From: Thiohalobacter sp.
GTDB lineage: Bacteria > Pseudomonadota > Gammaproteobacteria > DSM-19610
NCBI GenBank assembly: GCA_026984835.1
Contig: JALSRI010000212.1
Span: 1-34,299, forward strand
DNA length: 34,299 nucleotides
Direction of reading: 5' to 3'
Every line of letters begins with the position of its first letter. The first letter of the stretch is position 1. Both the position numbers and the translations under genes were made by a program. This document shows positions 1,099 to 18,907 of this stretch, in pieces. Below the pieces are notes generated by a model that made no database searches, was not told where the DNA came from, and saw nothing but the letters and a program-made list of their open reading frames with translations.

Positions 1099-3129
1099 AT
1101 GAGTTTCATTCTGGGTATATCCGTCGTCATCAGGCTGCTGGCCCTGGTCTGGGCGCTGCGCCTGTGGCACCGCATCCAGGACTGGCGCATCGGTTTTCTC
1201 GGCGCCATGGTGGCCCTGATGGCCCTGCGCCAGACGCTCACGCTGGCCAAGAAGGGCTTCGGATGGCCGCCGCAGCTGAGCGCCGGCATGGACGAGATCC
1301 CGGGGCTGCTGGTCAGTATCCTGGTACTGCTGGCGATCGTCTTCCTTGGCCGCATGATAGCCGACGAGCGCCGGCGTTCGGCCGAGTTGCTGGTCACCAA
1401 CCGTGAGCTGGAACGCCAGATCGCGCGTCGCCACCAGGCCGAGGATCGCCTGCTCACCCTGTCACAGGCCATCGAGCAGAGCCCCGAGAGTATCTTCGTC
1501 ACCAACGCCGATGGGCGGATCGAATACGTCAACGCGGCCTTCGTGCGCGATACCGGTTACCAGCCACAGGAGGTGACGGGCAGGAATCCACGCCTGCTCA
1601 AGTCCGGCCGTACCCCAAAGGCCACCTACCGGTCGCTGTGGAAGGCATTGCTGGCTGGCGATTCCTGGGAGGGGGAACTGTACAACCGTCGCAAGGATGG
1701 CAGCGAGTGTATCGTCCGTTCCATCATTTCCCCGGTGCGCGACGCTGCTGGAGAGATCAGCCACTACGTGGCCATCAATCAGGACGTCACCGAAAAGAAG
1801 CAGGCCGAGGAGCGGATCCGCTACCTGGCCTATTACGATCCGCTCACCGGCCTGCCCAACCGTACCCTGTTGATGGAACGGCTCAACCACGCCCTGGTGC
1901 AGCCCCGCGGGGCAGCGAACAAGGGGGCATTGCTGCTCGTCAACATCGACCGCTTCAAGACCGTCAACGAAGCCCGCGGCCACCTGCTGGGTGACGCGCT
2001 GTTGCGCGCCATCGGCGAGCGTCTCGGCCACTTGCTGCACGACGACGACACCGTGGCCCGCCTCGCCTCGGACGAGTTCGCCGTGCTGGTGAGGGAACTG
2101 GCCGGGAGCGACGACCGGGCGGCGGCTCGGGTGAAGCGCATCGCCGAGCGGATGCTGGAGGCGCTGCGCGAGCCGGTCGACATCGACCACGAGGACATCT
2201 ATGTCACCGCCAGCCTGGGGGTCACCCTGTTCCCGGAGAGCGCACAGGAGAATGCCGGCGCCATCCTGCGCCGCGCCGATACCGCCCTGCACCAGGCCAA
2301 GGCGGGTGGCGGGAACCGCAGCGCTTTCTTCGAGACCGGCATGAGTCACTGGGCCGAGCAACGTTTTCAGATCGAACGCGAGCTGCGGCAGGCGGTCACC
2401 AATGAAGAGCTGCGCCTGTTCATCCAGCCGCAGGTGGATGCGCGGGGGCGGCTGGCCGGCGCCGAAGCCCTGGTGCGCTGGCAGCACCCGCAGCGAGGCC
2501 TGGTCCCGCCCGGGGTGTTCATCCCGGTGGCGGAAGAGTCCGACCTCATCATCGATGTCGGCGGCTGGGTGCTGTCAGAGGCGCTGAAGCTGATGGCGCG
2601 GGGCGACATGGCCGGCCACCCCTTCCACCTGGCCGTCAACCTGAGCCCGCGCCAGTTCCGCGTATCGGGCTTCATCCCCTGGCTCCAGGATCTGCTGGAA
2701 TCGACCGGTGCGGACCCCAGCCACCTGACCCTGGAGGTCACCGAAGGGCTGGTTATCCAGAACATCAATGAAGTGATCGCCAGGATGAATGAGATCGCGG
2801 CGCTGGGTGTGCACTTCTCGATCGACGACTTCGGCACCGGCTACTCGTCGCTGTCCTATCTCAAGCGCCTGCCGGTACACGAGCTCAAGATCGATCGCAG
2901 CTTCATCCAGGACGCGCCCGTCGACGAAGGCGATGCGGCGCTGGTGGAGACGATCCTGGCGGTGGCCGAACACATGCACCTCCGGGTAGTGGCGGAAGGA
3001 GTGGAGACGGAGGCGCAGGCGGCGTTCCTGAACGCGCGGGCCGATGTCATCCACCAGGGTTACCTGTACGGCAAGCCGGAGCCGGCCGAGGCCTGGTTCG
3101 AGCGCTGGTTCGGGAAAGCCGCGGGCTGA
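1099..3129 (+). CDS. Membrane PAS-GGDEF-EAL c-di-GMP signalling protein
   Basis: This 676-residue inner-membrane protein has three hydrophobic segments (about 1-22, 32-48 and 66-86) and a short coiled region. A PAS domain follows (about 115-235), then GGDEF (about 240-410) and EAL (about 425-670). The GGDEF signature is ASDEF at 323-327, a degenerate form, so cyclase activity is doubtful and the domain may only bind GTP. The EAL domain looks complete: E456-A457-L458, the N of NLSPRQF, E in LEVTEG, DDFGTG from 576, K597 and EGVET near 633. A c-di-GMP phosphodiesterase is therefore the likely activity, tuned by the PAS domain. ATG 1099 is preferred because GGGGGAC lies 7 bases upstream and the first helix begins at once. 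An in-frame ATG at 1054 would add 15 basic residues. Confidence 0.92.
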   Translation: MSFILGISVVIRLLALVWALRLWHRIQDWRIGFLGAMVALMALRQTLTLAKKGFGWPPQLSAGMDEIPGLLVSILVLLAIVFLGRMIADERRRSAELLVTNRELERQIARRHQAEDRLLTLSQAIEQSPESIFVTNADGRIEYVNAAFVRDTGYQPQEVTGRNPRLLKSGRTPKATYRSLWKALLAGDSWEGELYNRRKDGSECIVRSIISPVRDAAGEISHYVAINQDVTEKKQAEERIRYLAYYDPLTGLPNRTLLMERLNHALVQPRGAANKGALLLVNIDRFKTVNEARGHLLGDALLRAIGERLGHLLHDDDTVARLASDEFAVLVRELAGSDDRAAARVKRIAERMLEALREPVDIDHEDIYVTASLGVTLFPESAQENAGAILRRADTALHQAKAGGGNRSAFFETGMSHWAEQRFQIERELRQAVTNEELRLFIQPQVDARGRLAGAEALVRWQHPQRGLVPPGVFIPVAEESDLIIDVGGWVLSEALKLMARGDMAGHPFHLAVNLSPRQFRVSGFIPWLQDLLESTGADPSHLTLEVTEGLVIQNINEVIARMNEIAALGVHFSIDDFGTGYSSLSYLKRLPVHELKIDRSFIQDAPVDEGDAALVETILAVAEHMHLRVVAEGVETEAQAAFLNARADVIHQGYLYGKPEPAEAWFERWFGKAAG

Positions 3130-3155
3130 GGCGGGCAGACCGGCTTCCTGCCTCA
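3127..3155. terminator. Inverted repeat between convergent genes
   Basis: TGAGGCGGGCAG at 3127-3138 faces CTGCCTCA at 3148-3155. The outer TGA and TCA are the stop codons of the GGDEF-EAL gene and of the convergent yihY-like gene. The two arms can fold into a short GC-rich hairpin with a bulge on either transcript. No T-tract follows, so calling it a terminator is an inference. Confidence 0.3.
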
Positions 3156-4040
3156 GTTCCACAGACCCGCTTCCCGCTCCCCGCTGCCGATGCGCTCGTA
3201 GTTGGCGATCACCTGCGCGCCCAGCAGCAGGATGAGGGCGGCGGCTTCCAGGCTCAGCAGAATCACCACGGCGGTCGCCAGGGTGCCGTAGATGACGTTG
3301 ACGAACGACAGGGTCGAGAAATACCAGACCAGGAAGTGGCGCGTCAGCTCCCACAGTACCGCCGCCGTGACGCCACCGACCAGGGCGTGGCGCCAGGCCA
3401 GCCGGCCGACCGGCATCACCAGGTACAGCGAGCTCAGCAGCAGCACCTCGCCCAGCACGCCAACGATGTACATGAAGGTGGCGCCGTGGCCGCTGAACAC
3501 CCAGTGGCCGCCGAGCAGCCGGCCGCCGTCGTCGGCGATGGCATCGATGCCGCCGCTGACCACGCTGACCACCAGCAGGCCGAAGCCCAGCAGCAGAATA
3601 TAGAAATAGGGCAGGATGGCGGACACCAGGAAGTGGCGCCGCTGGATCCTGACACGGTGGTGGAAGATCACCGACATGGCGTTCTCGAGCACCGTGAAGG
3701 CCAATGAACTGAAGAACAGCATGACCGCCAGGCCGACAATGCCCACCAGTTTCCAGTTGGCGAGAAACACCTCGATCTGTGCCATCAGGGCCTCGGCCTC
3801 GCCCGGCGCCACCAGCGCCAGGTAGCCGCGGGTGATCTCCAGCAGGCGCTGGGGTTCGATGACCTGCGACAGCACCACCAGGATGAGCGCGAACAGCGGC
3901 ACGATGGACAGCAGTGTGTAGTAGGCGACTGCCCCCGCCAGCAGCAGCCCCTGGTTGGCGCGGAAGGTGCGCACGACCCCAGCGACGAAACGCCAGGGCC
4001 TGCGGGTCACCAGGGCGAGGCGGGCAGCGGAAGAGGGCAT
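3153..4040 (-). CDS. YihY/BrkB family inner-membrane protein
   Basis: The 295-residue protein matches the YihY/virulence factor BrkB family in length and order. It has a basic cytoplasmic start and then LLLAGAVAYYTLLSIVPLF, the family's first-helix signature. Further helices lie near residues 97-117, 138-163, 185-209, 220-240 and 250-275, giving six in all, ending GAQVIANYE. Members are inner-membrane proteins of uncertain role. Early claims that the family is RNase BN were withdrawn, and some members are discussed as transporters. The gene converges with the GGDEF-EAL gene and lies 28 bases downstream of the giant beta-helix gene on the same strand, so it could be read through from it, but I see nothing linking the two functionally. 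Confidence 0.9.
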   Translation of the reverse strand: MPSSAARLALVTRRPWRFVAGVVRTFRANQGLLLAGAVAYYTLLSIVPLFALILVVLSQVIEPQRLLEITRGYLALVAPGEAEALMAQIEVFLANWKLVGIVGLAVMLFFSSLAFTVLENAMSVIFHHRVRIQRRHFLVSAILPYFYILLLGFGLLVVSVVSGGIDAIADDGGRLLGGHWVFSGHGATFMYIVGVLGEVLLLSSLYLVMPVGRLAWRHALVGGVTAAVLWELTRHFLVWYFSTLSFVNVIYGTLATAVVILLSLEAAALILLLGAQVIANYERIGSGEREAGLWN

Positions 4041-4068: not shown

Positions 4069-7000
4069 TCAGTTCTCGCGCTGAGGAATCAGCGTCTGGA
4101 TCAGGCTGGCCAGCAGCAGCGGCCAGAGGATCCAGTGGATGACGTTGACTGCGCCGGCATACAGCCACATCTCGCCGCGCGGCGCCAGGTAGGGCCAGGG
4201 GTCCCAGCCGATGATGGGCAGGTGATAGCGCGTCGCCAGGGCAAAGCCGTGGCCGAGGCGCGCCAGCCAGCCCTTCGACGTGAGGGTGGCGGGAACACGA
4301 TGCGTTCCGTCAGGGTCCGGCGCCGGAACCGTCCAGCCGCACGACCCGCCACCGTTGCGGCACCCCGGATCGAGCGCCTCTGCCAGGACGCCGGCTGCCT
4401 CCGGATCCTGGGTGATCTCCAGCAGCGACATGCGCGTCTCCGGTGTCAGCGTGACGGCGTCGGCATGGTCGACCGCGAACCACAGGGCTGTGAATACATA
4501 CCACACCGCCATGAAGGCCAGAATGGGCGCCCGCTTGGTGCCATAGCCGACGATGGAGTGCAGCAGCATCAGGGCGGTGGCGAAGCGCCGCTGCTCGCGC
4601 CACTGTTCCTGGCGGCGCATGGCGCGGTGCACCTGGTCGGCCAGCTGGCGGTTGCCCTGGTTGCGCTGTGTGCGTTCCATGCTGCTGTAGGTGGAGCGCT
4701 TGAATTCCGAGGAATGTTCCAGAATGCGGAGGATGCGCTTTTCCCGGTCGCCGTCGCCGCTGCCCAGCGTCCAGCGGTCGACCGACACATTGCTGAGATC
4801 CACCTGGTCCGGGAAGGGTTCGCTCATCTGCCAGTGGCCGATGCGGGCGCGTTCCACGATCACCTTGGGCTCGGGCGGAGCGATGCGGGTGGCGATGGGC
4901 AGGCCCAGCACCTGCAGGACGTCGGCGAAGGCCAGCTGGCGGGCGCGCAAGCGCCCACGCAGTTGCTGGAAGCCGGTCTCGTCTTCGCCGCCGGGCGGGT
5001 CGCTCCGCCCCTGCCGGCCCAGGGCGCGGTGTGACAGCCAGTTGATCTGCCAGACGTCGAACAGCAGGTAGAACAGGTAGCCGAGCAAGAAGAACAGCCC
5101 CGTGGCCCAGAACGGGATGCCGATGGCCGGGCCGTCCGGCCAGTGCCACGCCGCCAGGGCGAGCACGCCGCCGGCGGCGAGCATGGACGCCAGGGCCGAA
5201 ATCGCATGGAAGGTCCGAAACGCTATCCGCCTTGCGTTCGCCGGGCTGCCCGCTTCCTTTTCGCCAGGCAGCGGCAGCACCGAGCGCGCCATGGGGAGGC
5301 CGCGGTCCCACTGGTCGTAGCCGCAATGTACGCGCGCGCCCATCTCGCCGGCGAGCAGCCAGAAACGGCGCGCGATAGAGAGGCTGGCGGCCAGCAGTAC
5401 CGCCCAGGTCAGCCGTTCGCCGACCCCGAGTCCGGTCGGCTCCAGCAGCCCGAAGGGGTTGACCAGGAACAGGACGACGATCACCGTCAGCAGGCCCAGC
5501 GCTGCCACGGCCCGGCCCGCGACATGGGCGAGCACCGCCAGCAACGTGCCGGCCAGCAAGGCGAGGGGCAGCGGCCAGGCGCCTGCCTGGGCGAGCCGGG
5601 GTGCGGTCGGTACCAGGCAAGCAGCGAGCAGGGCCAGCGGATACAGGGCAAACAGGGCGGCCATCGCACCGGCGGCGCCGGACCAGCTGGCGTGCCCGCG
5701 GGCCGGTGCAGCCTGGCGGTGCGGTCGCTCGCCGTCGATGCAGCTGCCCGACACCACGAGGTGATCGACGCGGGCGCTGGACAGGTCGATGCCCCGGCCG
5801 TTCAGCCTGGCGCAGGCGCCTGTGCCACTGTCCGCAGCCCCTTTCTCCGGGCACAGCCGGAGCTTGCCCTTGATCGCGGCACCGCGCGCCTGGATGGCGC
5901 GCCCGGGGTGGTCCGCGTCGTTGCCGGTCTTGTCGATGCAGAGACCTTCCAGCCTGGCATCACCCTCGATGGTCGCCATGTTGAGGGTGACCGAAGTGCA
6001 GTGAACCTGGCGCACGCCTTCGCCAGCCACGCCGAGGAACAGGTTGCCGGCTGTGACATCGTCCAGATCCAGTGCCGTCACGTGGCCGCCCAGGATGCCG
6101 ATGTCCCCCTTGACCCGGGTGCCTGCCAGCGTCAGCGTGCCCAACTGCTTTGTCCCGTCGATCTCCCCGTCGGCGATGTCGACGTCTTCGATCACCAGAT
6201 CGCCGCCGCCGGCGCAGTCGGTCAGCGAAACCGGCCCCCGGGAGACCAGCCTGCACAGGCTGATGTCGCCGATGACCGGGAAGGCGGCCCCGGTGATCCG
6301 GTCGATGCGGGTTTCGGCCACCGCTTCGTCTTTTTTCCTTTTTCGTCCGCCCAGCTCGAGGGCGCCGATCTCCCGCAGCCGGTTCAGGCGCAGCTCACCC
6401 CGGACGGTTACGCCATCGATTGCCAGCTTTCCGCCGATCCGGCTCTCGGTGAGGTCGACGTCGGACAGTTCGATCGGCGCATCGCCGCTGCTGTCCCCGG
6501 CCGCTTCCGGCCGGCCCTCCAGGCGTATACGGTAGGGGCTGATGCGCAGATCGCGTCCCACCTTCATACTGCGCATCCGGGCCTCGCCGCCAATCGAGGT
6601 GCCCGCCAGCTGCAGGGTGCCCTCGAGTTCCAGCCCGTCCAGGTGCAGCGGCCCTTCCAGCCGGGCCCGTTGCAGATACAGGTCCCCTGCCAGGTCCGAA
6701 TCCGAGAGGTCGGTCACCCTTGAAATGGTCATGGCATCGTAGCGCCATCCATACAGGCGCATTCGTCCGCCGACCCTGGCATGGCGCATCTGCAGCTGCT
6801 CGACGCAGCTGTTGTCGAGTTCGAAATCCGAGCCCACGTCGATGAAATCGGCCAGGATTCCGGTTCTCTGGTCTCGCCCGGCCAGATACGCACTGTGCCG
6901 TCCGCGTCCGCCCGCCTCGTCCGTGACGTCCAGGTGGCGGCGTGCCTCGGGCCGCAGACTGCCGTCCGCTTCCAGCAGCCCGGCGCGAACCTTTTTCAGG

Positions 7001-10000
7001 AGCAGCCGGTGCCGGCAGCGCAGTCCGTTCATGTGGATCACGCGACAGTCGAGCAGCCAGCCGTCCTCGCCCACCTCGGGCAGATCGGCCACCGGTTCGC
7101 AGACCACTTCCCCGGCCTGCAAGCCCTGCAGATCGAGCAGGCCGCCGGCATCCCAGCTGCGCTGGCAGTCGGTCAGCACCTCGAGCCCGGTCAGGTCCAG
7201 CCTCCCGCCGATGGTGCAGTTTTCGAGCTGGACCTTGCCGAGGCGGGCGCGGGGCATGGCGAAGCCTGGCGCGCCCGCGTACTCCTGGCGCAGCTGTTTG
7301 GCGAGCGCCGGGTTGAAGAACGACAGGTTGCCGGAAATCCGGCAATCCGCCAGGACCAGTGTGCCGTTCTGGTCGAATACCGCATGCCGCTCGCCCCTGG
7401 CGGTTTCCTGCGGCGCCAGCATCCGGAGGCCGGTCAGATCCAGCGTCTCGGTCACCAGCCCGCGGATATAGAGGCCATGGCCGATGCGGCAGGGCTGTGG
7501 CCGGTCCGAGGCCGGCACCCGGCCCGGCCGGAAATAGACCGCCATGGCCTTGCCGGGAGACACCATGTCGACGCTGCCGCGCACGGTCAGGGCCTCGAAC
7601 TCCATGTGCCCGTCCACCCGGGCGCCACCCAGTATCAGGTTGCCGTCGATCTCGACCGGGCCGCTGTCGGCGGTAGTGCGGGCGTAGACGGCGTCGCGCA
7701 CGCGGCAGTGCGAGAGCGTCATGTCGCCATCGACCAGGATGGCGTCGAGGAGCACGCTGCCCGCCGACAGCTGGTTCAGGCAGACGGCGATGCCATTGTG
7801 GTCCGCCTTGAAATGGCTGGCCTCCAGTTGCAGGTTGCCCGACAGGGTGGCGGCCTGGAAACTCGCGCCACCGCAGAACAGGCACTGGTCCCAGACGATC
7901 AGGTCACCGCCTACCTGTGCATGCGCGGCGCTGAACGCTCGCCGGACGGCGCAGCGCGACAGGTGGACGTGACCCCGGGGGGCATGCAGGTAGTCCGCCT
8001 CGATCCGGTGGGCCAGCAGTCGGTCGCCGCGCAGCCCGCTGCGCAGCGTGGCATCGCGCAGCGTCAGGGAAGGGAGGTAGTCGCCAGCCTCCCTGCCCAC
8101 GTCATGCAGGGTGGTGGAGCCCTTGACGGACAGGCCGCGCAGGTCCAGGTCGAAGCGGTTACGGCCCCGTTTGCCGAACGATTTCCTGAAATCGATATCC
8201 GCGAGCGCGAGATCCTCCTCGATGCGGCTGTTGCGCAGTCGCAGTACGCCGTCGATACGGAAGCGGTCCAGTGTCAGGGCGGCAGGAAGGGTCATGTTGC
8301 CCAGGTCCAGGTCACCGGTGATCCAGACCCGGGTGTCCACTGCGGCCTGCCGGTACCGCTCGATGAAGCGGACCAACAGGGTCAGCGTCCGGCCGGAATC
8401 CGGCCGGACGGTCCCGCCGCCGGCCTGCAGGCACAGCCAGCGGCGGGTGCCGGGCGCCTCCATCAGGACCTGTTGCCAGGCTTTGCCGTCGCCGCCGAGG
8501 ACGTCCTCGAGGGCAAAGTCGCCAGCCGGGTCGCCGCGCCCGGCGGCCTGTTCCAGGCCCGACAGCAGCCGCTCCGTGGTGAGGATGTCGACCACGGCTT
8601 CCTCGAGCACGAACAGGCCGATGCGCTGCAACTGCTGGATCTCCTCGCCGGGGGGCGTCTCGCAGGCCTCGTCTTCCAGCATTTCGACCCGGCCGTCCGG
8701 CTGCACCCGGAACCGCGCCAGGCGTTGTCGTGAGCCGTGGGCGACCAGAACCCTCGAGACCACGAAGGAGCCGTCTTCGGCCCTTTCGATGCAGTCGCGG
8801 CCGACCGGTGCACCCAGCGCAAACGTGGCGATGCCCGCGTCGGCTGATTCCGGCGCCAGGGAACTGCAGAAGAACTCCAGGTAGTCGCCGACCCGTTCCT
8901 CGTCGCCGGCCGCGAACTGCAGGCCCAGTTCCCGGTTCAGCGCATGGATGACGTTGGAGCGCCAGTCGAGGCACACCAGCCGGGTGCGTTGTTCGTCCCG
9001 GTCGGCGATGGCGATGAACCGGGCGCGTTCCACTCTGCCGCCGTCTCCCGGCCGGAACACCTCGAACAACACACTGGTGGCATGCCCGCCGTCGTAGCAG
9101 GACAGCGGCCGGGCGCGGATGAGGGCGTCGTCGGCCTGGAACAGGCGGTCGAGTTCATCGGTCCAGAGGATGCGGTGGGCGAAGCGGAAGTCATCGGTGG
9201 TGTCTGCCGGCGCCAGGATGTCGCGCAGGGTGCCGGGGAACCGGCTGCCGACGTGGAAAGCGGACCAGGGGATGCGCTGGCCGGCCGGCCCGGCCTGCGG
9301 CTCGGTCAGCGCAGCATCCACCAGGCCCAGCTTGTCCAGGCTGCCCACCCAGGGCGGCGCCTCTCCCTCGATCGGCTCGTCGTCGAGCATCTCGACCCCG
9401 CCGTCCGCCTCCAGCAGCAGGCGGATCCGGAACAGCGCGCCGTCATAGGCCATGCGGGCCGCTTCCACCTCGGCGCGGCCTGCATCGCTGTTCCAGCGAA
9501 AGCCGTCGGGTGGATCCTTGCCCAGCAGGACGAAGGCCGTCTGCTGGCCCGACAGCGAGCCGCAGAAGTAGTCCAGGTAGTCCCAGGCGCGCTGCGGGTC
9601 GTCGAAGGACTTCAGGCCGAGGAGGGTGTTCAGCCGGTGGATGGGGGCCGAACTCCAGTCGAGCTGGTAGGGTCCGCCGCTGATGCGGTCTCCCTCCAGG
9701 GTGACCAGGAAACGCCAGCGGGCCAATGCGCTGCCTTCCAGCACTTCGAACAGCCAGGTCTCCTGCGGCGCCGGCGTGTCGAAGAACGACAGCCGCCGCG
9801 CGCACACTGCGCTGCCGTCGTCGTCGGCGACCCGCCCCAAGCGCTCACGGACGGCCCGGAGCAGGCGCGCCTCGATGCTGTCGGCCGTCGCCGATGACGC
9901 AGGTCCTGCCCGTGCTTCCGCCCCGGGGGCTGCCCAGCCGCGCTGCTCGAGCACGGCCCGGCAGACGGCGTTGATGCCCGGCCCGGCCCGCACGACCCGC

Positions 10001-10035
10001 CAGTCGACGGCCGGGGCGTCGGCAGGGTGGGTCAT
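4069..10035 (-). CDS. Giant beta-helix membrane protein with duplicated N-terminal module
   Basis: The 1988-residue product has three parts. Residues 1-500 hold two copies of a module, starting at LSFFD (about 82) and LSCYD (about 311). Each has an LDW-S motif and a DYLxFFC motif, then a strand unit containing VEMLxDE. Residues about 570-1445 are a long run of short degenerate repeats such as LDLGNMTLPAALTLDRFRID and LYLQRARLEGPLHLDGLELE, which predict a right-handed beta-helix like pentapeptide or bactofilin-type solenoids. Residues 1455-1988 contain about eight membrane helices. A segment with YSSMERTQRNQGN and IVGYGTKRAPIL resembles the C-termini of pentapeptide-repeat, ion-channel-like membrane proteins. 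No enzyme motif was seen. ATG 10035 is chosen because the open frame upstream (to 10413) would overlap the divergent protease gene and is not conserved-looking. The ribosome binding site is weak. The function is unknown; a ligand- or protease-controlled channel is my inference. Confidence 0.85.
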   Translation of the reverse strand: MTHPADAPAVDWRVVRAGPGINAVCRAVLEQRGWAAPGAEARAGPASSATADSIEARLLRAVRERLGRVADDDGSAVCARRLSFFDTPAPQETWLFEVLEGSALARWRFLVTLEGDRISGGPYQLDWSSAPIHRLNTLLGLKSFDDPQRAWDYLDYFCGSLSGQQTAFVLLGKDPPDGFRWNSDAGRAEVEAARMAYDGALFRIRLLLEADGGVEMLDDEPIEGEAPPWVGSLDKLGLVDAALTEPQAGPAGQRIPWSAFHVGSRFPGTLRDILAPADTTDDFRFAHRILWTDELDRLFQADDALIRARPLSCYDGGHATSVLFEVFRPGDGGRVERARFIAIADRDEQRTRLVCLDWRSNVIHALNRELGLQFAAGDEERVGDYLEFFCSSLAPESADAGIATFALGAPVGRDCIERAEDGSFVVSRVLVAHGSRQRLARFRVQPDGRVEMLEDEACETPPGEEIQQLQRIGLFVLEEAVVDILTTERLLSGLEQAAGRGDPAGDFALEDVLGGDGKAWQQVLMEAPGTRRWLCLQAGGGTVRPDSGRTLTLLVRFIERYRQAAVDTRVWITGDLDLGNMTLPAALTLDRFRIDGVLRLRNSRIEEDLALADIDFRKSFGKRGRNRFDLDLRGLSVKGSTTLHDVGREAGDYLPSLTLRDATLRSGLRGDRLLAHRIEADYLHAPRGHVHLSRCAVRRAFSAAHAQVGGDLIVWDQCLFCGGASFQAATLSGNLQLEASHFKADHNGIAVCLNQLSAGSVLLDAILVDGDMTLSHCRVRDAVYARTTADSGPVEIDGNLILGGARVDGHMEFEALTVRGSVDMVSPGKAMAVYFRPGRVPASDRPQPCRIGHGLYIRGLVTETLDLTGLRMLAPQETARGERHAVFDQNGTLVLADCRISGNLSFFNPALAKQLRQEYAGAPGFAMPRARLGKVQLENCTIGGRLDLTGLEVLTDCQRSWDAGGLLDLQGLQAGEVVCEPVADLPEVGEDGWLLDCRVIHMNGLRCRHRLLLKKVRAGLLEADGSLRPEARRHLDVTDEAGGRGRHSAYLAGRDQRTGILADFIDVGSDFELDNSCVEQLQMRHARVGGRMRLYGWRYDAMTISRVTDLSDSDLAGDLYLQRARLEGPLHLDGLELEGTLQLAGTSIGGEARMRSMKVGRDLRISPYRIRLEGRPEAAGDSSGDAPIELSDVDLTESRIGGKLAIDGVTVRGELRLNRLREIGALELGGRKRKKDEAVAETRIDRITGAAFPVIGDISLCRLVSRGPVSLTDCAGGGDLVIEDVDIADGEIDGTKQLGTLTLAGTRVKGDIGILGGHVTALDLDDVTAGNLFLGVAGEGVRQVHCTSVTLNMATIEGDARLEGLCIDKTGNDADHPGRAIQARGAAIKGKLRLCPEKGAADSGTGACARLNGRGIDLSSARVDHLVVSGSCIDGERPHRQAAPARGHASWSGAAGAMAALFALYPLALLAACLVPTAPRLAQAGAWPLPLALLAGTLLAVLAHVAGRAVAALGLLTVIVVLFLVNPFGLLEPTGLGVGERLTWAVLLAASLSIARRFWLLAGEMGARVHCGYDQWDRGLPMARSVLPLPGEKEAGSPANARRIAFRTFHAISALASMLAAGGVLALAAWHWPDGPAIGIPFWATGLFFLLGYLFYLLFDVWQINWLSHRALGRQGRSDPPGGEDETGFQQLRGRLRARQLAFADVLQVLGLPIATRIAPPEPKVIVERARIGHWQMSEPFPDQVDLSNVSVDRWTLGSGDGDREKRILRILEHSSEFKRSTYSSMERTQRNQGNRQLADQVHRAMRRQEQWREQRRFATALMLLHSIVGYGTKRAPILAFMAVWYVFTALWFAVDHADAVTLTPETRMSLLEITQDPEAAGVLAEALDPGCRNGGGSCGWTVPAPDPDGTHRVPATLTSKGWLARLGHGFALATRYHLPIIGWDPWPYLAPRGEMWLYAGAVNVIHWILWPLLLASLIQTLIPQREN

Positions 10036-10198
10036 GTCGGACAACCTGTGTTCATGGGACGGCCTTGCAGTGGGGCGACTACAGGGTATGTCCGGGCCGG
10101 GTGCCTTTTCAAGCGAACGCCGGATCGCGCGAATTTGAGAACCCCGCGCAACTCGGTTATGGTCACGACAAAACAACGACCTCCGAAGCAGGGGATGC
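10036..10198. promoter_or_regulatory. Divergent promoter region of the beta-helix/protease locus
   Basis: This 163-base spacer separates the two oppositely transcribed arms. For the plus strand there is a good sigma70-like promoter: TTGAGA at 10135-10140, a 17-base spacer, and TATGGT at 10158-10163. It would start transcription near 10170, about 29 bases before the ATG. For the minus strand the best match is TTGAAA (plus-strand TTTCAA at 10107-10112) with only a poor -10. A shared control region would allow co-regulation of both arms. No clear operator palindrome was seen. Confidence 0.45.
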
Positions 10199-13100
10199 AT
10201 GCCGTACTGGACCACCCTGGGACGTGATCCACGCGCGCCCGAGTCGCCGGGCGCCTGGCAGGCCGTGGAAGACAGGGAAGCCGCGTCCGTATGGCAGGCC
10301 TTGCCGCAGCTGCTGCGCCATGCCATGACGCTGCCGGAGGGGGCCGAACGGCGGGTGCTCAAGATGCCGCTGTCGTTCTGCCCCGACCGTGTTCTGTACG
10401 AATTCGTCGCCACCGATACGCTGCCGCGGCTGCCACGCTATGTGCTGGGCGGCGCGGCGGGCGCGGTGCTGCTCGACGGGTCGAATGCGCCCGTCTACGC
10501 CCTGGGCCGGTCGGGCGCCCTGCGGCTGGACGAGCAGACGGTCGCCGACTACGTGCGCTTCTTCCTCTCCCACGTGGTGGGCCGCGACGGCCGCTTCCTG
10601 CCGCTGGAATCCGTCGACACAGTGCCGCGCCTGGACGGCTTCGGCGCCGGGCACCAGGCCCTGCTGGCCCGGCATGCACGTCCGCTCGCAGCCGGGAGGG
10701 TGAAACGCAGGGGGGAGTGCTTCGAACTGGAGACGAGCCTGCTGCTCGGCCAGTCCCTCGCACCCGTGACCGTCCGCGTCGATGCGGCGGGGCGCGTCGA
10801 TCTCGACATCGGCGAAGTCGTGGCCGAGGCGCTGCCGCTGGCGCCGGACCGGCCGGCCGACGCCGACCATCCGGGCCGGCCGCGCTTCGATTTCCTGGAC
10901 GGCTGGCGCGCCGCCGCCGCCCTGGATCCGGCCCTGCGCGCGCAGCTGCAGCGTTCGCCCGATCTGGCCGCTGCCATGGAGGAGGGCGGTCTTGCATTCC
11001 AGGCGCTGCCCTTCTTCGATGGCGTGGTGCTGCTGCGCCGCGGCAAGGACCGCCCGCCCCTGGGTTTCGGCGCCCATGCGCTGCTGTCGGCGCAGGGCAT
11101 CTTCCCCCTGCACGGCAGCTCGACGCCCATCTTCGAAGCCATCGAGCGCGAGACCTTCCGGCTCGACGACGCCAGCGTCGCCGACTACCTCACCTTCTTC
11201 TGCGACTTCGTCCACGGGGAGGAAGGCCCGTTCCGGCTGGTCGCCAGGCCGCGGGAACTGAACGCCGCCACCGCCCCGGCCGGCGACGGCGACCCGGCCC
11301 GGCTCGACGCACCGCAGCTGCCCTACCGGCAACTGTCGCCGCGCCAGCTGGACAGCCTCATCGGCCCCGTGCAGGCGCGCCGCGACGGAGACGGCTGGCG
11401 CTGCGCGGCGCTCAACCAGTATGGGAACAACCTGTTCATGGCCCGTTTCCTGGTCCGGCCCACGGGCGAGATCGAGATGACCGAAGACCAGGTCCTGGTC
11501 ACCGACATCCCCATCGACGCCTCGCTCGACCGCATGCGCACCTGGATACAGCCGGTGTCTGCGGGGGCGGAGGGCGGCCTGTCTGCGCCGGGCAGCGACA
11601 AGTGGCCCGCCTACCTCAACGCCCGCAAGCTGGAATCGTCGATCCTCGACGAATACGTGCGCCAGCAACTGCTGCGTGCGCTGCGCGAGGGGCAGGGCGG
11701 CCCCCTGCTCGATGTCGACGCGGCGGCCGACGACGAGACGCTGCTGCGGGCGCTGGCCGTCTTCCTGTACCGGGCCTGGCCGGTCGTGATCATCGAGTCG
11801 CCGATCCCCTGCATCGAGGAGATCGTCGCCCGCCTGCTGCGCGAGCGCATCGACCGGTCCGGTCCGTGCAAGAAGATGCAGGCGGCACCGCAAGACGCCT
11901 CGCAGGGCGTGCTGCCCTCCATCGACGATGGCGACACGCTGCTGGTGTCGCTGCACCAGTGGCATCGCATTCTGCGGCCGGAGGCGGTCGCCTACCGGCT
12001 CGGGGTCACCGATGCCGTCACCCTCGTCGGCTGCGATACGCCCGCGGTGGTGCCGGATGCCCTGCAGCGGGTGGCGGACATCGAGCTGACGCTGGGCGGC
12101 GTCGATGACGCGCTGTTCCGAACCCTGTTCTGCGGGCTGTTCGACTGCGACTGGCCGGACGGCGGCGCCGGCGGCGACGGGCTCTGGCCGCACTATGTGA
12201 TGCCCGGCGATTTCTACGTGCCGGTGCGCGACATGCTGCAGCGGCGCTATGCGGTGGCGGAACCCGCCGACGCCGGGCCGGACACGGACGACGCCGGGGC
12301 GTCGCCGCGCTGGACACCGGCCGCGGCGCTGGCCGCCGTCCGGGCGCGGGTGCAGGCGCGGCTGTCGGCGATCGAGGTCGACGACGGTCCGGGGCTGGAC
12401 GAGCTGCACGGGCTGGGCGAGGCCCGGGCGGTGTTGAAGGACCTGCTGGCCGACATCCGGGCGGCGGTCTCCGGCGCCATCCCCTGGGACGCGGTGGACC
12501 GCGGCATGCTGCTGGTGGGCGAGCCGGGAGTGGGCAAGACATTGCTGGCGCGCGCCCTGGCGCGCGACGGCGGCGTGCGCTTCATCCACGCCAGCGAGGC
12601 GCGCTGGATCGAAGGCACCGACGGCCTGTCGGCGCACATCCTGGCCATCCGCGCCACCTTCGCCGAGGCGCGCCGCAGCGCCCCCTGCATCCTGTTCATC
12701 GACGAACTCGATTCCATCGGTAACCGGCAGCTGTTCGAAGGGCGCAACAAGGAATACTGTACCGAGATCGTCAACACCCTGCTGCAGGAACTGCAGGGCG
12801 TCATCGACCGCCAGGGTGTATTCGTCATCGGCGCCACCAATTACCTGGAGTACGTCGACCCGGCGCTGACCCGCGCCGGGCGGCTGGACCAGGTGGTGCG
12901 GGTGCCGCGGCCCGACCGCCGGGCGCTGCAGGGCATACTGGACTACTATCTGCAGCCCTACGCGCGCGACGGCCGTCTCGACGCCGACATCGACAGCAGC
13001 GCGCTGGCGGGCATGGCGCTGGGTGCCACCGGCGCCGACATCGAGTTCTTCGTGCGCGATGCCGCGCGGCGCGCCCGCAAGGCGGGTGTGCCGCTCGGTC

Positions 13101-13753
13101 ACGGCCATCTGGCGGCCGCCATCACCCGGGCGCCGCGCGACCGCGGCGCCGCGCGGCGGCTGGCGCCGGAGGAACAGGCGCGCACCGCCGTTCACGAGGC
13201 CGGCCACGCCATCGCCCTGCTGGCCTGCGGGCACTACCCGGCGCGCCTGTCGGTGGTCTCCATCATTCCGCGCAGCAACGGCAGCCTGGGGTTCACGGGG
13301 GCGCTGCCCGACGCGCGCAACACCCTGACGCGCCGTGCCTGCGACGAGTATCTGCAGGTGCTGCTGGCGGGCAGGGCGGCGGAGGAGCAGGTCTATGGCA
13401 GCGATGGCGTCAGCAGTGGCGCCGGTGGCAGCAGCGACAGCTCGGACCTGGCCCTGGCCACGCGCTGGGCGGCGCGCATGGTGGGTGAGCTGGGTTTCGG
13501 GCCCGCCGGCGAGCTGCGCTGGCAGCCGCAGCCGGAGTCGGCGGCCGCTGCCGACCGGGTGCGCCGTCTGCTCGACCAGGCCTACACCGCCGTGTCGGCG
13601 CGTCTGGCCGGTCACCGGCCGCTGATCCACGCCCTGCGCGACGCGCTGCTCGACGAGCATGAACTGTACGCGCCGGCGCTGTACCGGCTGGCGGCCGAAC
13701 ACGACCTGCCGGTCGCCGCCGGGGAGGAGGAACGCCATGTCCCGGGTCCCTGA
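10199..13753 (+). CDS. FtsH-like AAA+ zinc protease with duplicated sensor module
   Basis: The 1184-residue soluble protein has no membrane segments, unlike FtsH. Residues about 55-210 and 265-440 are two copies of the module also found in the beta-helix protein (LSFCPD and LPFFDG starts, DYVRFF and DYLTFFC). Residues about 480-650 look like a degenerate AAA+ domain with no Walker A (VVIIESPIP, VTLVGCDTP). Residues about 715-960 are a complete AAA+ domain: GEPGVGKT 774-781, ILFIDE 831-836, GATN 878-881 and arginine fingers R892 and R895. Residues about 985-1170 are a peptidase M41 domain with HEAGH 999-1003 and D1083 as the likely third zinc ligand. It should unfold and degrade protein substrates using ATP. 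ATG 10199 has AGGGG upstream and follows a good promoter. The next gene overlaps its end. Confidence 0.88.
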   Translation: MPYWTTLGRDPRAPESPGAWQAVEDREAASVWQALPQLLRHAMTLPEGAERRVLKMPLSFCPDRVLYEFVATDTLPRLPRYVLGGAAGAVLLDGSNAPVYALGRSGALRLDEQTVADYVRFFLSHVVGRDGRFLPLESVDTVPRLDGFGAGHQALLARHARPLAAGRVKRRGECFELETSLLLGQSLAPVTVRVDAAGRVDLDIGEVVAEALPLAPDRPADADHPGRPRFDFLDGWRAAAALDPALRAQLQRSPDLAAAMEEGGLAFQALPFFDGVVLLRRGKDRPPLGFGAHALLSAQGIFPLHGSSTPIFEAIERETFRLDDASVADYLTFFCDFVHGEEGPFRLVARPRELNAATAPAGDGDPARLDAPQLPYRQLSPRQLDSLIGPVQARRDGDGWRCAALNQYGNNLFMARFLVRPTGEIEMTEDQVLVTDIPIDASLDRMRTWIQPVSAGAEGGLSAPGSDKWPAYLNARKLESSILDEYVRQQLLRALREGQGGPLLDVDAAADDETLLRALAVFLYRAWPVVIIESPIPCIEEIVARLLRERIDRSGPCKKMQAAPQDASQGVLPSIDDGDTLLVSLHQWHRILRPEAVAYRLGVTDAVTLVGCDTPAVVPDALQRVADIELTLGGVDDALFRTLFCGLFDCDWPDGGAGGDGLWPHYVMPGDFYVPVRDMLQRRYAVAEPADAGPDTDDAGASPRWTPAAALAAVRARVQARLSAIEVDDGPGLDELHGLGEARAVLKDLLADIRAAVSGAIPWDAVDRGMLLVGEPGVGKTLLARALARDGGVRFIHASEARWIEGTDGLSAHILAIRATFAEARRSAPCILFIDELDSIGNRQLFEGRNKEYCTEIVNTLLQELQGVIDRQGVFVIGATNYLEYVDPALTRAGRLDQVVRVPRPDRRALQGILDYYLQPYARDGRLDADIDSSALAGMALGATGADIEFFVRDAARRARKAGVPLGHGHLAAAITRAPRDRGAARRLAPEEQARTAVHEAGHAIALLACGHYPARLSVVSIIPRSNGSLGFTGALPDARNTLTRRACDEYLQVLLAGRAAEEQVYGSDGVSSGAGGSSDSSDLALATRWAARMVGELGFGPAGELRWQPQPESAAAADRVRRLLDQAYTAVSARLAGHRPLIHALRDALLDEHELYAPALYRLAAEHDLPVAAGEEERHVPGP

Positions 13754-15758
13754 CAACCGCGCCAGGCTGGATCACCGCGTCTACAAGGTCTGGATCGAGG
13801 TCCTGCTGCGCGAGGCGCTGCGACGCAGCCCGGCCTGGCGCGAGCCGGCGCCGGCCGCGGCCGACGGTGACGGGATGGGGGAGTTTGCTCGCTATGTGCA
13901 GCGCGTGGCGCCGGTCATGCTGGTCGAATCGTCGCTGCCCTATGCCGAGCACCTGGTGATGGAACTGATTGCCGAACGTGGCAGTTTCCGTGACCCGCTG
14001 CATCAGCCGTCGCTGCTGTCGGGGCAGTGGCAGACCAGCGGCAAGCGGCCGCTGAGCGCGCGGACGCCGCTGGTGTTGTCCTTTCACGAGCCCAACGAGT
14101 GGCACCAGAGCCTGGAGCTGGTGCACGACATCGAGACCACCGACAACCCGGTGCTGATCGGCTGCGATCACATCAGCCAGGTGCCGGCCGAGTTCCACCG
14201 CCTGATCGACTTGCGGCTGGCCCTGGCGTCGGCGGACGCCGACCGCTTCGACGCCATCTTCGAAACCCTGTTCGGGGAGCCGTTGCCCGACGCCGGGCCG
14301 GAGGACGGGCGCTGGCGCGATTTCGTCACGCCGGCCGATGTGCAGCCGCCGCTGCGACTGGACTATCCGCCCGCCGAGGCCGCCCGCTACATCCGCCAGC
14401 GGGTCACCAGCCGCCTGAGCCGCCTGGAGGTGGACGACGCCCCCTCGATCGACGAGCTGCACGGCCTGGGCGAGGCGCGCCGGATCGCGCTGGATCTCAA
14501 GCACGATCTGCGGCTGGCGCTGCAGGGGCGGCTGGACTGGAGCGAGGTGGACCGCGGGCTGCTGCTGGTCGGCCCGCCCGGCACGGGCAAAACCACGCTG
14601 GCGAAAGCCATCGCGCGCGACTGCGCGGTGAAGTTCATCAACGCCAGCGCCAGCGACTGGCAGTCGGCGGATGGCCTGGGTCTGCACCTGGCGGCCATCC
14701 GCGCCACCTTCGAGGACGCGCGGCGCTTTGCGCCCGCCATCCTGTTTATCGACGAAATCGACTCCATCGGCAACCGCGAGACCCTGAGCGGCGCCAGCCA
14801 GACCTACCAGGCCACGGTCACCAACTACCTGCTGGAACAGCTCGACGGTTTCGCCGAGCGCGGCGAGCTGGTGGTCATCGGCGCCACCAACGACGAGGAC
14901 AGGGTCGATCCGGCGCTGCGCCGCGCCGGGCGCCTGGACCAGGTGGTGCAGATCCCGTACCCGACCATCCGCGCCCTGGCCGGCATCTACGCCTGGCACC
15001 TGAAAGCGCACGCCGGGGCCGGCCGGCTGGCGGACGACGTGGACTGCGACGCGCTGGGGCGCCTGTCGTTCGGGCTGACCGGCGCCGACGTGGAGTTCTT
15101 CGTGCGCGGCGCCGCGCGGCGCGCACGCAAGCGCCGCGACCTGATTCGCCACGACGACCTGGTGGCCGAGATCCTGCGCCGCCCGCGCGACGGGGCGGGC
15201 GCCGCGCCCTTCGATGCAGCGACCATCCGGCGGCTGGCCGTGCATGAAGCAGGCCACGCCACCCTGCGCCTGCTGGGCAGGCGTGGCGGCGAGGAGATCA
15301 GCTATGTCTCCATCGCACCGCGCAGCGATGGCCGTATCGGTTACCTGGCGGCCTTCGACGACGAGCGCGTGTCCATGACCCGGGACGACTACCTGCACGA
15401 GATCCGGGTGCTGCTGGCCGGTCGCGCGGCGGAAGACCTCCTGTTCGGCACCGAGGGCGTCTCGGACCTGGCCGGCAACTACGGCGAGCACAGCGATCTG
15501 GCGCAGGCGACCCGCATCGCCCGCCACCTGCTGGGTGTATCCGGCCTGGCGGGCGAGGGCGACCTGACCTGGTACGCGGCCTTGCCGGCGGGGCTGCACC
15601 GGCCCGTCGAGACGGCGATCGAACCGCTGCTGCGCGAGGCCTACGAGACGGCGCTGCGCGAGCTGGAGGAACACCGGCCGTTGCTCGAGACCATCGCCAC
15701 GGCGCTGAACCGGCAGCAGGAACTCGACGGCGCCACCCTGCGCGCCTGGCGCGGCTGA
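13737..15758 (+). CDS. Cytosolic FtsH-like AAA+ zinc protease
   Basis: The 673-residue protein is a paralogue of the C-terminal 700 residues of its upstream neighbour but lacks the duplicated N-terminal modules. Residues about 50-200 are a degenerate AAA-like domain (VMLVESSLP, VLIGCDH). Residues 230-460 are an intact AAA+ domain preceded by IDELHGLGEAR: GPPGTGKT 279-286, ILFIDEID 335-342, GATN near 382, R396 and R399. The M41 peptidase has HEAGH 503-507 and D587 as the probable third zinc ligand. No membrane helix is present, so it should act in the cytosol. ATG 13737 follows a near-perfect GGAGGAGGAA site and overlaps the preceding gene by 17 bases, so translation is probably coupled and the two proteases may form a mixed ring. 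The frame extends upstream to 13659, but that is overlap shadow. Confidence 0.9.
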   Translation: MSRVPDNRARLDHRVYKVWIEVLLREALRRSPAWREPAPAAADGDGMGEFARYVQRVAPVMLVESSLPYAEHLVMELIAERGSFRDPLHQPSLLSGQWQTSGKRPLSARTPLVLSFHEPNEWHQSLELVHDIETTDNPVLIGCDHISQVPAEFHRLIDLRLALASADADRFDAIFETLFGEPLPDAGPEDGRWRDFVTPADVQPPLRLDYPPAEAARYIRQRVTSRLSRLEVDDAPSIDELHGLGEARRIALDLKHDLRLALQGRLDWSEVDRGLLLVGPPGTGKTTLAKAIARDCAVKFINASASDWQSADGLGLHLAAIRATFEDARRFAPAILFIDEIDSIGNRETLSGASQTYQATVTNYLLEQLDGFAERGELVVIGATNDEDRVDPALRRAGRLDQVVQIPYPTIRALAGIYAWHLKAHAGAGRLADDVDCDALGRLSFGLTGADVEFFVRGAARRARKRRDLIRHDDLVAEILRRPRDGAGAAPFDAATIRRLAVHEAGHATLRLLGRRGGEEISYVSIAPRSDGRIGYLAAFDDERVSMTRDDYLHEIRVLLAGRAAEDLLFGTEGVSDLAGNYGEHSDLAQATRIARHLLGVSGLAGEGDLTWYAALPAGLHRPVETAIEPLLREAYETALRELEEHRPLLETIATALNRQQELDGATLRAWRG

Positions 15759-16036: not shown

Positions 16037-16669
16037 TCAGCCGGCCGGGGTGAACCGGCCGCTGACGGGGTCGCGGCACAGCAGTTCGCCCGATGTCAGG
16101 TCGTAGTACCAGCCGTGCAGCTCCAGGCTGCCCTTGTCGATGCGTTCGCGGATCCAGGGGAAGCTGGCCAGGTTGGCCAGCGAGATGCCGATGGCATCCA
16201 GTTCGCAGGCATGGGCGCGTTGGTCGAAGTCGTGCAGGTCATCGCGCTCCAGGGCGTTGCGGCGGGCGGCGGCGGCGATGCGCATCCAGTCGGCCACGAA
16301 GCTGTCTTCGCCGCGTTCGTCCCGGCCTTCCAGCAGGGCGCGGATGCCGCCGCAGCGTGCGTGGCCGAGCACGACCAGGTGCTCCACGTCCAGGCCGCAG
16401 ACGGCGAATTGCAGGGCCGCGCTGGTGCCGTGCCAGATGCCCTCGCCCTCGCAGGGTGGCACCAGGTTGGCGACGTTGCGGATCACGAACAGCTCGCCAG
16501 GCGCGCTGTCGGTGATGACGGCCGGGTCGACGCGCGAGTCGCAGCAGGCCACCATGGCGACGCGCGGCGACTGGCCGGCGGCCAGGTCGGTCAACCGTTC
16601 CCTGTTGTCCTGGAAATAGCCTTCCCGGAAGCGGCGATAGCCGGCGAGCAGGTCGTCGATGGCGGTCAA
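16037..16669 (-). CDS. Beta-class carbonic anhydrase
   Basis: The 210-residue protein interconverts CO2 and bicarbonate at a zinc site in the cytoplasm. The beta-class ligands and catalytic pair are present: C42, D44 and R46 in CCDSRVDP, and H103 and C106 in GHARCGG. The conserved FVIRNVANLVPP and GTSAALQFAV segments sit between them. Length fits the family. The start is TTG 16669, which overlaps the aldolase stop as TTGA. AAGGGGAA lies just upstream, so translation is probably coupled to the aldolase. Longer open sequence upstream on this strand is shadow. The tight pairing with an aldolase suggests a link between bicarbonate supply and sugar-phosphate metabolism, which is an inference. Confidence 0.95.
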   Translation of the reverse strand: MTAIDDLLAGYRRFREGYFQDNRERLTDLAAGQSPRVAMVACCDSRVDPAVITDSAPGELFVIRNVANLVPPCEGEGIWHGTSAALQFAVCGLDVEHLVVLGHARCGGIRALLEGRDERGEDSFVADWMRIAAAARRNALERDDLHDFDQRAHACELDAIGISLANLASFPWIRERIDKGSLELHGWYYDLTSGELLCRDPVSGRFTPAG

Positions 16670-17856
16670 TCGGGTTCCCCTTCTTCGTTCAATCGGTAGT
16701 CGATGCTGACGCGGTCGCCGGCCACCGGCCGGAAACGGTGGTCGGCGAAATCCCGGTGCGCCGGGTGCTCGCGGTAGCTGTCGATCACCGCCGGGTGGGT
16801 GAAGGTGACCAGCCAGCAATGGCGGTAGCGGGCGTCTTCCGCGACGGCTGTGCCGGTGGCCACGCGGCGCACGCCGGGTATGGCGCCGAGCACGCGCCGG
16901 CCCTCGGCCATCATGTCCCGGGCGCCGGCGTCGTCCAGGCCGGTGGTATTGTAGAGGATCACGTGTTCGACCGGCTGCCAGGCCGCGCAGGCGGCGCGCA
17001 GCGCGTCGGCCCGGCCGGCACTGCCCCACAGGCGCATGCAGCGTTCCGCCTCGGCGGCCACGGCCTCGCGGACGCCGCGCGTCAGCTCGGTGTAGCTGCC
17101 GCCGCCGTCGCCGGCGTTGGCGCGGATGCGCGCGCCGGCGGCGTCGGCCAGCGCCGTGTAATAGTTGATCTTGGCCACGCCCGCCGCGATCAGGCGCCGG
17201 AACTGCTCGTCGGCCAGGCCGGTCCCGCCGTGGATGACCAGCGGCAGGCCGAGCGCCGCGTCGATGGCCCGCAGGCGGTCGAAGTCCAGCCGTGGCTCGC
17301 CGCGCATGCGGCCGTGCACGGTGCCGACCGACACGGCCAGGAAGTCGACACCGGTCTGCTCGACATAGGTGCGGGCCTCCTCGACCGAGGTATAGACGAC
17401 CTCGCCGGGGTGGCGCTCGGCGTCCTCGCCTTCCACGCCCGGCACGTAGCCCAGTTCCCCTTCCACCGGAATGCCGCAGGCATGCGCCATGTCGACCACC
17501 TCGCGGGTACGGTGGATGTTTTCCGCCAGTGGCGCCTGCGACGCGTCGACCATGACGCCGTTGCAGCCCAGGCGGATGCCGCGCACCGCCGATTCCAGTG
17601 ATTCGCCGTGGTCCAGGTGGATGGCCACCGGGACCGCTGCGCGCCGGGCGGCCGCCACCACCGCGGGCATCACCAGCTCGAAATCGAAGTACCCGAAGTG
17701 GGATTCCGCCAGGCTCAGGATGATGGGCGACCGGCAGCGTTCGGCCGCCGCCATCAGGCCTTCCAGGAAGTCGAGGCCGACCAGATCGAAGGCGCCCACC
17801 GCGTAGCGATTGCGGTGGGCGTGACGCAGCATGTCGCCCATGTCGACCAGTGCCAT
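16666..17856 (-). CDS. Class II aldolase fused to a Dabb domain
   Basis: Residues 1-290 are a class II (zinc) ketose-bisphosphate aldolase of the Fba/GatY type. Visible features are D82 and H83 in HLDHGES, EGELG at 132-136, H181 in GTVHG and H209 in VIHGGTGL, matching the catalytic aspartate and zinc histidines. Residues about 296-388 (VEHVILYNTTGL ... FADHRFRPVAGD) form a stress-responsive A/B barrel (Dabb) domain, an unusual partner for an aldolase. The substrate cannot be told from sequence; fructose- or tagatose-bisphosphate are the family precedents. The gene overlaps the carbonic anhydrase gene and is divergent from the nhaR-like gene across 124 bases. The start ATG 17856 begins MALVDMGDMLRHAH, the usual family N-terminus. 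Confidence 0.88.
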   Translation of the reverse strand: MALVDMGDMLRHAHRNRYAVGAFDLVGLDFLEGLMAAAERCRSPIILSLAESHFGYFDFELVMPAVVAAARRAAVPVAIHLDHGESLESAVRGIRLGCNGVMVDASQAPLAENIHRTREVVDMAHACGIPVEGELGYVPGVEGEDAERHPGEVVYTSVEEARTYVEQTGVDFLAVSVGTVHGRMRGEPRLDFDRLRAIDAALGLPLVIHGGTGLADEQFRRLIAAGVAKINYYTALADAAGARIRANAGDGGGSYTELTRGVREAVAAEAERCMRLWGSAGRADALRAACAAWQPVEHVILYNTTGLDDAGARDMMAEGRRVLGAIPGVRRVATGTAVAEDARYRHCWLVTFTHPAVIDSYREHPAHRDFADHRFRPVAGDRVSIDYRLNEEGEPD

Positions 17857-17980
17857 AGCGGTATCCTCTCGTGACTGCGGGGTGGAATCTGTTCCCGATC
17901 AGGATAAACGTTGTGCATACTAAGAAAAAATCGATTATAACTACACTACCATTCGTATAATACGAGGGTACCATGGGGCT
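17857..17980. promoter_or_regulatory. Divergent promoter region with LysR-type palindrome
   Basis: The spacer is AT-rich compared with its surroundings. TCGTAT-A-ATACGA at 17953-17965 is a perfect interrupted palindrome with the T-N11-A form of a LysR-type operator. It contains a consensus TATAAT at 17956-17961 pointing towards the regulator gene; the matching -35 is weak. A second TATAAT lies on the minus strand (positions 17939-17934) and would serve the aldolase-carbonic anhydrase operon. An operator overlapping its own promoter is typical of LysR autoregulation. Confidence 0.5.
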
Positions 17981-18907
17981 GTGATCAACTACCGGCATTT
18001 GCATTATTTCTGGATGGTGGCAAAGGAGGGCAGTATCGCCCGCGCCGGCGAGCGCCTGCACCTGACGCCGCAGACCATCAGCGGTCAGCTCGGTGTGCTG
18101 GAAGACAGCCTCGGTGAACCCCTGTTCGTGCGCGCCGGCCGCAACCTGGAGCTGACCGAGACCGGCCGCCTGGTGCTGGGCTACGCCGACGAGATCTTTT
18201 CTCTCGGCAGCGAACTGGAAGAGATGCTGCGTGGCCTGCCGGAAGGCCGGCCGCTGGTGTTCCGCGTCGGCGTGGTCGACGTGGTGCCCAAGTCCATCGC
18301 CTACCGGCTGCTGGCGCCGGCCCTGGAGCTGGCCGAGGCGGTGCGCATCCAGTGCCGCGAGGGTGGTGTCGATTCGCTGCTGGCGGAGCTGGCGGTGCAC
18401 CGTGTCGACCTGGTGATCGCGGACGGCCCGATCCCGCCCGGCGTCAACGTGCGCGGTTTCAATCATCCGCTCGGCGAATGCGGCGTCACCTTCTTTGCCA
18501 CGCCGCCGCTGGCGCGCCGCTTCGGGCGGGATTTCCCCGCCAGTCTGGACGGCGCGCCGCTGCTGCTGCCGGGCGAGACCGGTCTGGTGCGGCGGCGGCT
18601 GACCCAATGGTTCGACGGCCTGCGCATCCACCCGCGCATCGTCGGCGAGTTCGACGACAGCGCCCTGATGAAGGCCTTCGGGCAGAGCGGCGCAGGCATC
18701 TTCGTGGCACCCACCCCCATTGCGGCGGAGGTCGAAGCGCAGTACGGCGTTACCGCCCTGGGACACACGGACGAGGTGCGCGAGCAGTTCTACGCCATTT
18801 CCGTGGAACGCAAGATCTCCCACCCGGCGGTAGCCGCCATTGCGCAGACGGCGCGTCAGTGGCTGTTTCGCGAGTCGCCCGCAGCCGGCGGGGGCAGGCG
18901 TGCATGA
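17981..18907 (+). CDS. nhaR: LysR-family regulator, NhaR-like
   Basis: The 308-residue protein begins MINYRHLHYFWMVAKEGSIARAGERLHLTPQTIS, the helix-turn-helix start typical of NhaR rather than generic LysR proteins. The effector-binding domain follows from about residue 90 (FRVGVVDVVPKSIAYRLL). NhaR activates Na+/H+ antiporter genes in response to sodium, and in some bacteria also biofilm polysaccharide genes. The next gene is a cation:proton antiporter 48 bases downstream, which supports the call. The start is GTG 17981; the ATG at 17973 runs into a stop. A LysR-type palindrome lies directly upstream. It may also control the divergent aldolase-carbonic anhydrase operon. Confidence 0.85.
   Translation: MINYRHLHYFWMVAKEGSIARAGERLHLTPQTISGQLGVLEDSLGEPLFVRAGRNLELTETGRLVLGYADEIFSLGSELEEMLRGLPEGRPLVFRVGVVDVVPKSIAYRLLAPALELAEAVRIQCREGGVDSLLAELAVHRVDLVIADGPIPPGVNVRGFNHPLGECGVTFFATPPLARRFGRDFPASLDGAPLLLPGETGLVRRRLTQWFDGLRIHPRIVGEFDDSALMKAFGQSGAGIFVAPTPIAAEVEAQYGVTALGHTDEVREQFYAISVERKISHPAVAAIAQTARQWLFRESPAAGGGRRA

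Follow-up and report, generated by a model that had tools for sequence, protein, structure and literature searches.

The window analysed here, 34,299 nucleotides long, is an entire contig (G000:C212) of a Thiohalobacter sp. genome that comprises 2.87 Mb across 259 contigs and has an estimated contamination of 4.33%. Two divergently transcribed genes encode a membrane protein and an FtsH-like protease, and both products carry two copies of a module of ~150-180 residues, N-terminal to their remaining domains. The features are as follows.

4069..10035, minus strand: gene of the membrane protein, 1988 aa, starting MTHPADAP
9295..9840, minus strand: module B1, membrane protein residues ~66-247 (profile envelope and outside-only profile)
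8620..9159, minus strand: module B2, membrane protein residues ~293-472 (profile envelope, outside-only profile, model pLDDT 88)
10036..10198: divergent intergenic region of 163 bases between the membrane protein and protease genes
10199..13753, plus strand: gene of the FtsH-like AAA+ M41 protease, 1184 aa
10319..10870, plus strand: module P1, protease residues ~41-224 (profile envelope and outside-only profile)
10952..11551, plus strand: module P2, protease residues ~252-451 (profile envelope, outside-only profile, model pLDDT 85)
13737..15758, plus strand: gene of a second FtsH-like AAA+ M41 protease, module-free, with its ATG at 13737 behind GGGGAGGAGG

The two protease genes overlap by 17 bases, and one sigma-70-like site in the intergenic region (10135-10163, plus strand) is directed toward them. 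The scan of window proteins showed no MoxR, vWA, STAND or GTPase core gene. A PAS-GGDEF-EAL protein (1054-3129, plus strand) adjoins a BrkB-family membrane protein (3153-4040, minus strand); this pair is unlinked to the modules. Downstream of the protease pair, a carbonic anhydrase (PF00484, 2.8e-44; ~16080-16560, minus strand) lies within a 1256-aa ORF (16037-19807). A tRNA-Ala(ggc) gene (23303-23378, plus strand) lies ~7.5 kb away from the gene of the second protease and is a possible insertion site.

The original prediction had placed four copies of one module, two per protein, between 8600 and 11500. Their coordinates and motif positions hold: LSFFDT starts at residue 82 of the membrane protein, VEMLDDE at 214, LSCYDG at 311 and VEMLEDE at 450; in the protease, LSFCPD starts at 58, VDLDIGE at 200, LPFFDG at 270 and IEMTEDQ at 425. 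The end of the range shifts slightly beyond 11500, because the profile envelope of P2 covers 10952-11551. We built an HMM from 38 relatives outside the window, with no window rows, and searched every window ORF with this outside-only profile (Z=100,000), using 400 shuffles and 2 reversals as controls. All four copies were found, with E values of 3e-30 for P2, 8e-24 for P1 and 1e-27 for the membrane protein as a whole. The B copies are divergent and were each matched in two pieces (B1: 8.7e-6 and 0.006; B2: 3.2e-8 and 0.65). No further window ORF, none of the 400 shuffles and neither reversal was matched. The profile and the shuffles together rule out chance similarity. In pairwise comparison, B1 and B2 share 31% identity (blastp 2e-16) and P1 and P2 matched at 2e-8, while the B-versus-P cross pairs were weak (in a database of the four sequences only).

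A common predicted fold had also been named as support, and at the level of fold order this was borne out for P2 and B2. AlphaFold models were obtained from input alignments of 42 and 40 sequences, respectively, drawn from the same pool of relatives with one plasmid locus (two rows) excluded; the P2 model reached pLDDT 85 and pTM 0.82 and the B2 model pLDDT 88 and pTM 0.85. In both, four strands are followed by two helices and three strands. When secondary structure was compared over the alignment, the models agreed at 65% of 153 aligned positions, versus a mean of 34% and a maximum of 44% for circular shifts. Across 42 module copies, we found no conserved catalytic set. One Tyr and one Gly are the only invariant residues, and a near-invariant Asn occurs in 40 of the 42 copies, the two exceptions being exactly P1 and P2; an active site within the module is therefore unlikely, and on these residue patterns the module looks non-enzymatic.

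That the pattern belongs to no named domain was confirmed as far as databases were searched. No family was matched at E 0.01 when the 42 members were compared with Pfam-A and NCBIfam, PHROGs gave no module match, and PADLOC, run with the whole window proteins, returned AAA-type matches only, all outside the modules. A known domain was thus rejected as the identity of the module. Searches with the module models by Foldseek gave nothing at E 0.001, nor did BFVD, and no sequence relative was found among solved structures. VIA yielded partial matches with best Z values of 4.8 and 4.0 for the module models; the partial resemblances to Whirly/PUR-like, RWD-like (CENP-P) and monellin/cystatin-like folds, all with Z under 5, serve as leads only.

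The four window copies do not form a single clade (AU p 0.003), and a clade of P1 and P2 gave an AU p of 0.028, which is to be read with caution given the long branches. B1 and B2 are sisters (support 99/88) and stand beside the module of a membrane protein of the same kind (L035). P1 clusters with a stand-alone copy and P2 with copies from L027 and L036, although the long branches make the exact positions unsure. The module is shared and present twice in each protein, as predicted, but it is not one common duplicated pair; the tree rules out a simple duplication that would have given both neighbours the same pair. Since the tree does not unite the four copies and places P1 and P2 in different subgroups, each protein brought its own versions of the module. 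The same tendency appeared in a quick tree of lower support that included Sinorhizobium rows: VirD4-linked and NTPase-linked copies separated, even when they came from one locus. The two modules of L160 are also far apart. From the position of B1 and B2 beside the L035 module and from the separation of VirD4- and NTPase-linked copies, we conclude that module copies track their partner protein and not the other module of the same locus.

The 1184-aa protease consists of the two modules, a region at residues 485-700, the AAA domain (PF00004, 1.8e-29) and an M41 domain with the HEXXH motif HEAGH (PF01434, 3.3e-22). As in FtsH, to whose solved structure it gave a strong match, the Walker A and B motifs, the HEAGH zinc motif and the Asp ligand position are kept and the arginine-finger region is present. 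Its score against NCBIfam TIGR01241 was 218.3 bits, below the cut-off of 600, which by score places this FtsH relative outside the equivalog. Where FtsH has its N-terminal anchor, the protease carries the two modules together with a region of 220 residues. Simple hydropathy showed no clear TM segment, N-terminus included; the best 19-residue value (1.66, at ~residue 514) lies within the 485-700 region. This region matched the second window protease only and has no solved relative, and we read it as a putative degenerate AAA domain. A putative inactive region before an active FtsH-type AAA domain also occurs in the vWA-MoxR kind of FtsH ternary systems (PMC7159879, section 21). The window differs from those systems in that the M41 domain follows the AAA domain and the scanned neighbours include neither MoxR nor vWA.

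In the 1988-aa protein, the two modules are followed by a pentapeptide-like beta-helix, several hydrophobic segments (the strongest at 1457-1658, 1837-1855 and 1965-1983) and a C-terminal two-TM region. L033, L035 and L036 share this two-TM region; the resemblance to module-free proteins in G483, G571, G612 and G664 is weaker. Module-free proteins with this C-terminal region occur at L156-L159. The helix, earlier described as a beta-helix, is probably a pentapeptide-repeat helix: the homologues L033, L035 and L036 pass the Pfam cut-off, whereas the window protein scores 15.4 against PF13576, for which the gathering threshold is 27. The protein resembles pentapeptide-repeat membrane proteins in its two-TM region and differs from them in its two modules, ~five extra hydrophobic segments and this low pentapeptide score. 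Because its N-terminus is not hydrophobic, its modules are probably cytoplasmic. The protein was absent from all 55 other relatives searched.

With the A1 profile, the module was detected in 11 of 398 sampled genomes of the phylum (Pseudomonadota, ~3%), own genome included, or in 10 of 397 without it; a wider profile detected it in 25 of 385 genomes from the class of G684. A scan of genome contigs yielded 80 loci, mostly with single-module proteins of ~206 aa in Micavibrio and unnamed Alphaproteobacteria. For many stand-alone copies, including those of this ~206-aa type, no obvious protease or NTPase partner was found. The module had no match among viral contigs or phage records, and a phage or virus origin was rejected on this basis. 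Among the genomes searched, its fusion to a protease was found in the window genome only.

We inspected the neighbourhoods of ~15 loci, so that the counts for each type of partner are small. On nSTAND1 NTPases, the module is C-terminal, either with ankyrin repeats (L028, residues 1327-1500) or with a long TPR-like region (L027, where a gene with SIR2 and TIR domains adjoins the module gene). It is likewise C-terminal of the repeats in the NTPase of L160 (residues 1467-1649), and it occurs in a Thiodictyon P-loop protein annotated as TPR (L161, residues 591-748). At L008 and L029, the module adjoins nSTAND1-ankyrin genes. Ankyrin proteins with the module directly follow vWA-CoxE-like genes in Thalassobaculum and Woeseiaceae (L086, L117), and in the Woeseiaceae locus L117 an AAA gene lies upstream of the vWA gene. 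At L008, L030, L037 and in S. meliloti, the module is directly upstream of a VirD4/TraG-like ATPase; in L030, a separate module gene overlaps the partner gene. Pentapeptide/two-TM membrane proteins carry the module as a fusion in the window, in L035 (two copies) and in L036, and in L033 the end of a separate module gene overlaps the start of the gene for such a protein.

On S. meliloti pEm1132b, an nSTAND1-ankyrin-module gene and a patatin phospholipase gene are divergent from a module gene and a VirD4-like ATPase gene, with caspase and SUMF1/FGS genes within ~20 kb of the module genes. The two module genes of pEm1132b thus point away from each other, as in the window, and a second S. meliloti plasmid has the same gene order. 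Patatins are known as defence effectors. PMC7159879 and PMC8195603 count caspase-like peptidases, FGS and TIR domains among the components of conflict systems, and the islands in which module proteins are linked to STAND or vWA/AAA proteins look like bacterial conflict (defence-type) systems.

Other arrangements were seen as well. In 12 loci of the Micavibrio type (including L049, L050, L052, L066, L077 and L097), a very large gene ends ~200 bases before a stand-alone module gene; its product exceeds 3000 aa in the open-ended cases and, in the two scanned, contains a right-handed, NosD-like beta-helix. Three consecutive module genes occur at L151:8797-11885 with a DUF6782-like protein between them. 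The latter was considered as a metallopeptidase partner, but no HEXXH was seen in its sequence and it was not counted as protease evidence. At L154:7336-15046, a module protein is flanked on one side by an unnamed 1414-aa gene and on the other by an SLT_2 lytic transglycosylase, with coding ends that share one base; a DPBB/SPOR protein comes next.

In its manner of work, the module may be closest to the effector-associated domains (EADs) that Kaur et al. (2020; PMC7159879, eLife e52696) described in NTP-dependent conflict systems, and to the adaptor idea extended in PMC8195603. Like the EADs, it is a small domain, apparently non-enzymatic, of which different proteins in one locus carry several copies and which is linked to NTPases, repeat proteins and peptidases. 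With EADs, a copy fused to a core NTPase is paired with a copy on an effector of the same operon. The Sinorhizobium loci each have two module-bearing genes, one for an nSTAND1-ankyrin protein and one a separate module gene. The window has the module on its AAA protease and its membrane protein, and the scanned neighbours showed no MoxR, STAND or GTPase core. The differences are that the 42 members, compared with Pfam-A, matched no Pfam family at E 0.01, that copies in adjacent genes are not closest relatives (AU p 0.003; the two distant L160 modules), and that the module is alpha+beta and ~150-180 residues long, whereas most EADs are alpha-helical. Because both the Pfam-family match and the closest relationship between adjacent genes fail, we do not file the module as an EAD.

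Elsewhere the module occurs on various proteins, immune-like NTPases among them, and it probably acts as a plug by which its carriers are coupled. We tentatively favour, at somewhat less than an even chance, a non-enzymatic alpha+beta coupling domain that here docks a soluble FtsH-like protease onto the membrane protein. Docking is proposed because the protease has active-site motifs but no anchor, its modules occupy the anchor's place and the modules of the membrane protein are probably cytoplasmic. The modules would replace the membrane anchor of true FtsH at the same N-terminal place, and two of them per protein would let the protease bind the membrane protein; the second, module-free protease would probably share a mixed ring with the first. 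Proteolysis would then be directed to the membrane in response to a signal sensed at the membrane protein, or alternatively the protease would control a putatively pore-like two-TM effector. Coupling is supported by the finding of four genuine copies in a divergently transcribed gene pair and by the occurrence of the module both fused to pentapeptide/two-TM proteins (window, L035, L036) and separate from them (L033). A shared partner or hetero-association through the modules is plausible and consistent with their wider occurrence. Against docking, module copies group in the tree by partner protein, a pattern not best predicted by a matched homotypic pair; many copies are stand-alone single genes, the protease-module fusion was seen in the window genome only and the scanned window proteins include no MoxR, vWA or STAND.

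That copies track their own partner protein and not each other would suit a module whose ligand is a single small molecule or peptide shared by all carriers, which would respond in parallel without contact. A conserved LDGTSPPIHxxN loop could line a pocket, and on NTPases the module is C-terminal of the repeats (L028, L160, L161), where STAND proteins often sense. Yet the most conserved polar positions are gone in P1 and P2 and no known ligand-binding family was matched by fold, and we regard such sensing as unlikely. In the protease the module precedes the AAA ring, and in other proteins it precedes or follows repeat regions. This also fits a substrate receptor that replaces the FtsH N-terminal domain, feeds the ring and caps repeat stacks, its presence in two neighbouring genes being coincidental. 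Action in trans is instead suggested by the separate module genes that overlap partner genes in L033 and L030, and we rate the receptor reading as quite improbable. Finally, the modules might mark the membrane protein as a substrate, so that the protease holds a putative toxic pore at a low level as long as no invader blocks this protease. Divergent neighbours that both carry modules, and two proteases with intact motifs beside a single membrane protein, are in line with such regulation. No similar protease was found within the 20 kb fetched around the module-bearing L035 and L036, and we consider it very improbable.

The coupling role proposed here for the protease and the membrane protein would extend to module-bearing ankyrin or TPR proteins linked to STAND or to vWA/AAA, and the module systems may serve in defence. 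It is a doubtful but conceivable generalization that one coupling domain links STAND-ankyrin, vWA-ankyrin, VirD4-like and pentapeptide conflict-type systems and also makes a soluble FtsH-like protease a recruitable membrane effector; a protease arm of this kind is not described in the cited conflict-system papers (PMC7159879, PMC8195603). The module family is large enough for study, and its ~206-aa stand-alone members suit crystallography and binding work. If the module is a coupling domain, it would offer a handle for conflict-type systems missed by Pfam, NCBIfam, PADLOC and PHROGs, none of which names the members tested, and it would pose a testable question: by what means a soluble AAA+ protease is recruited to the membrane.
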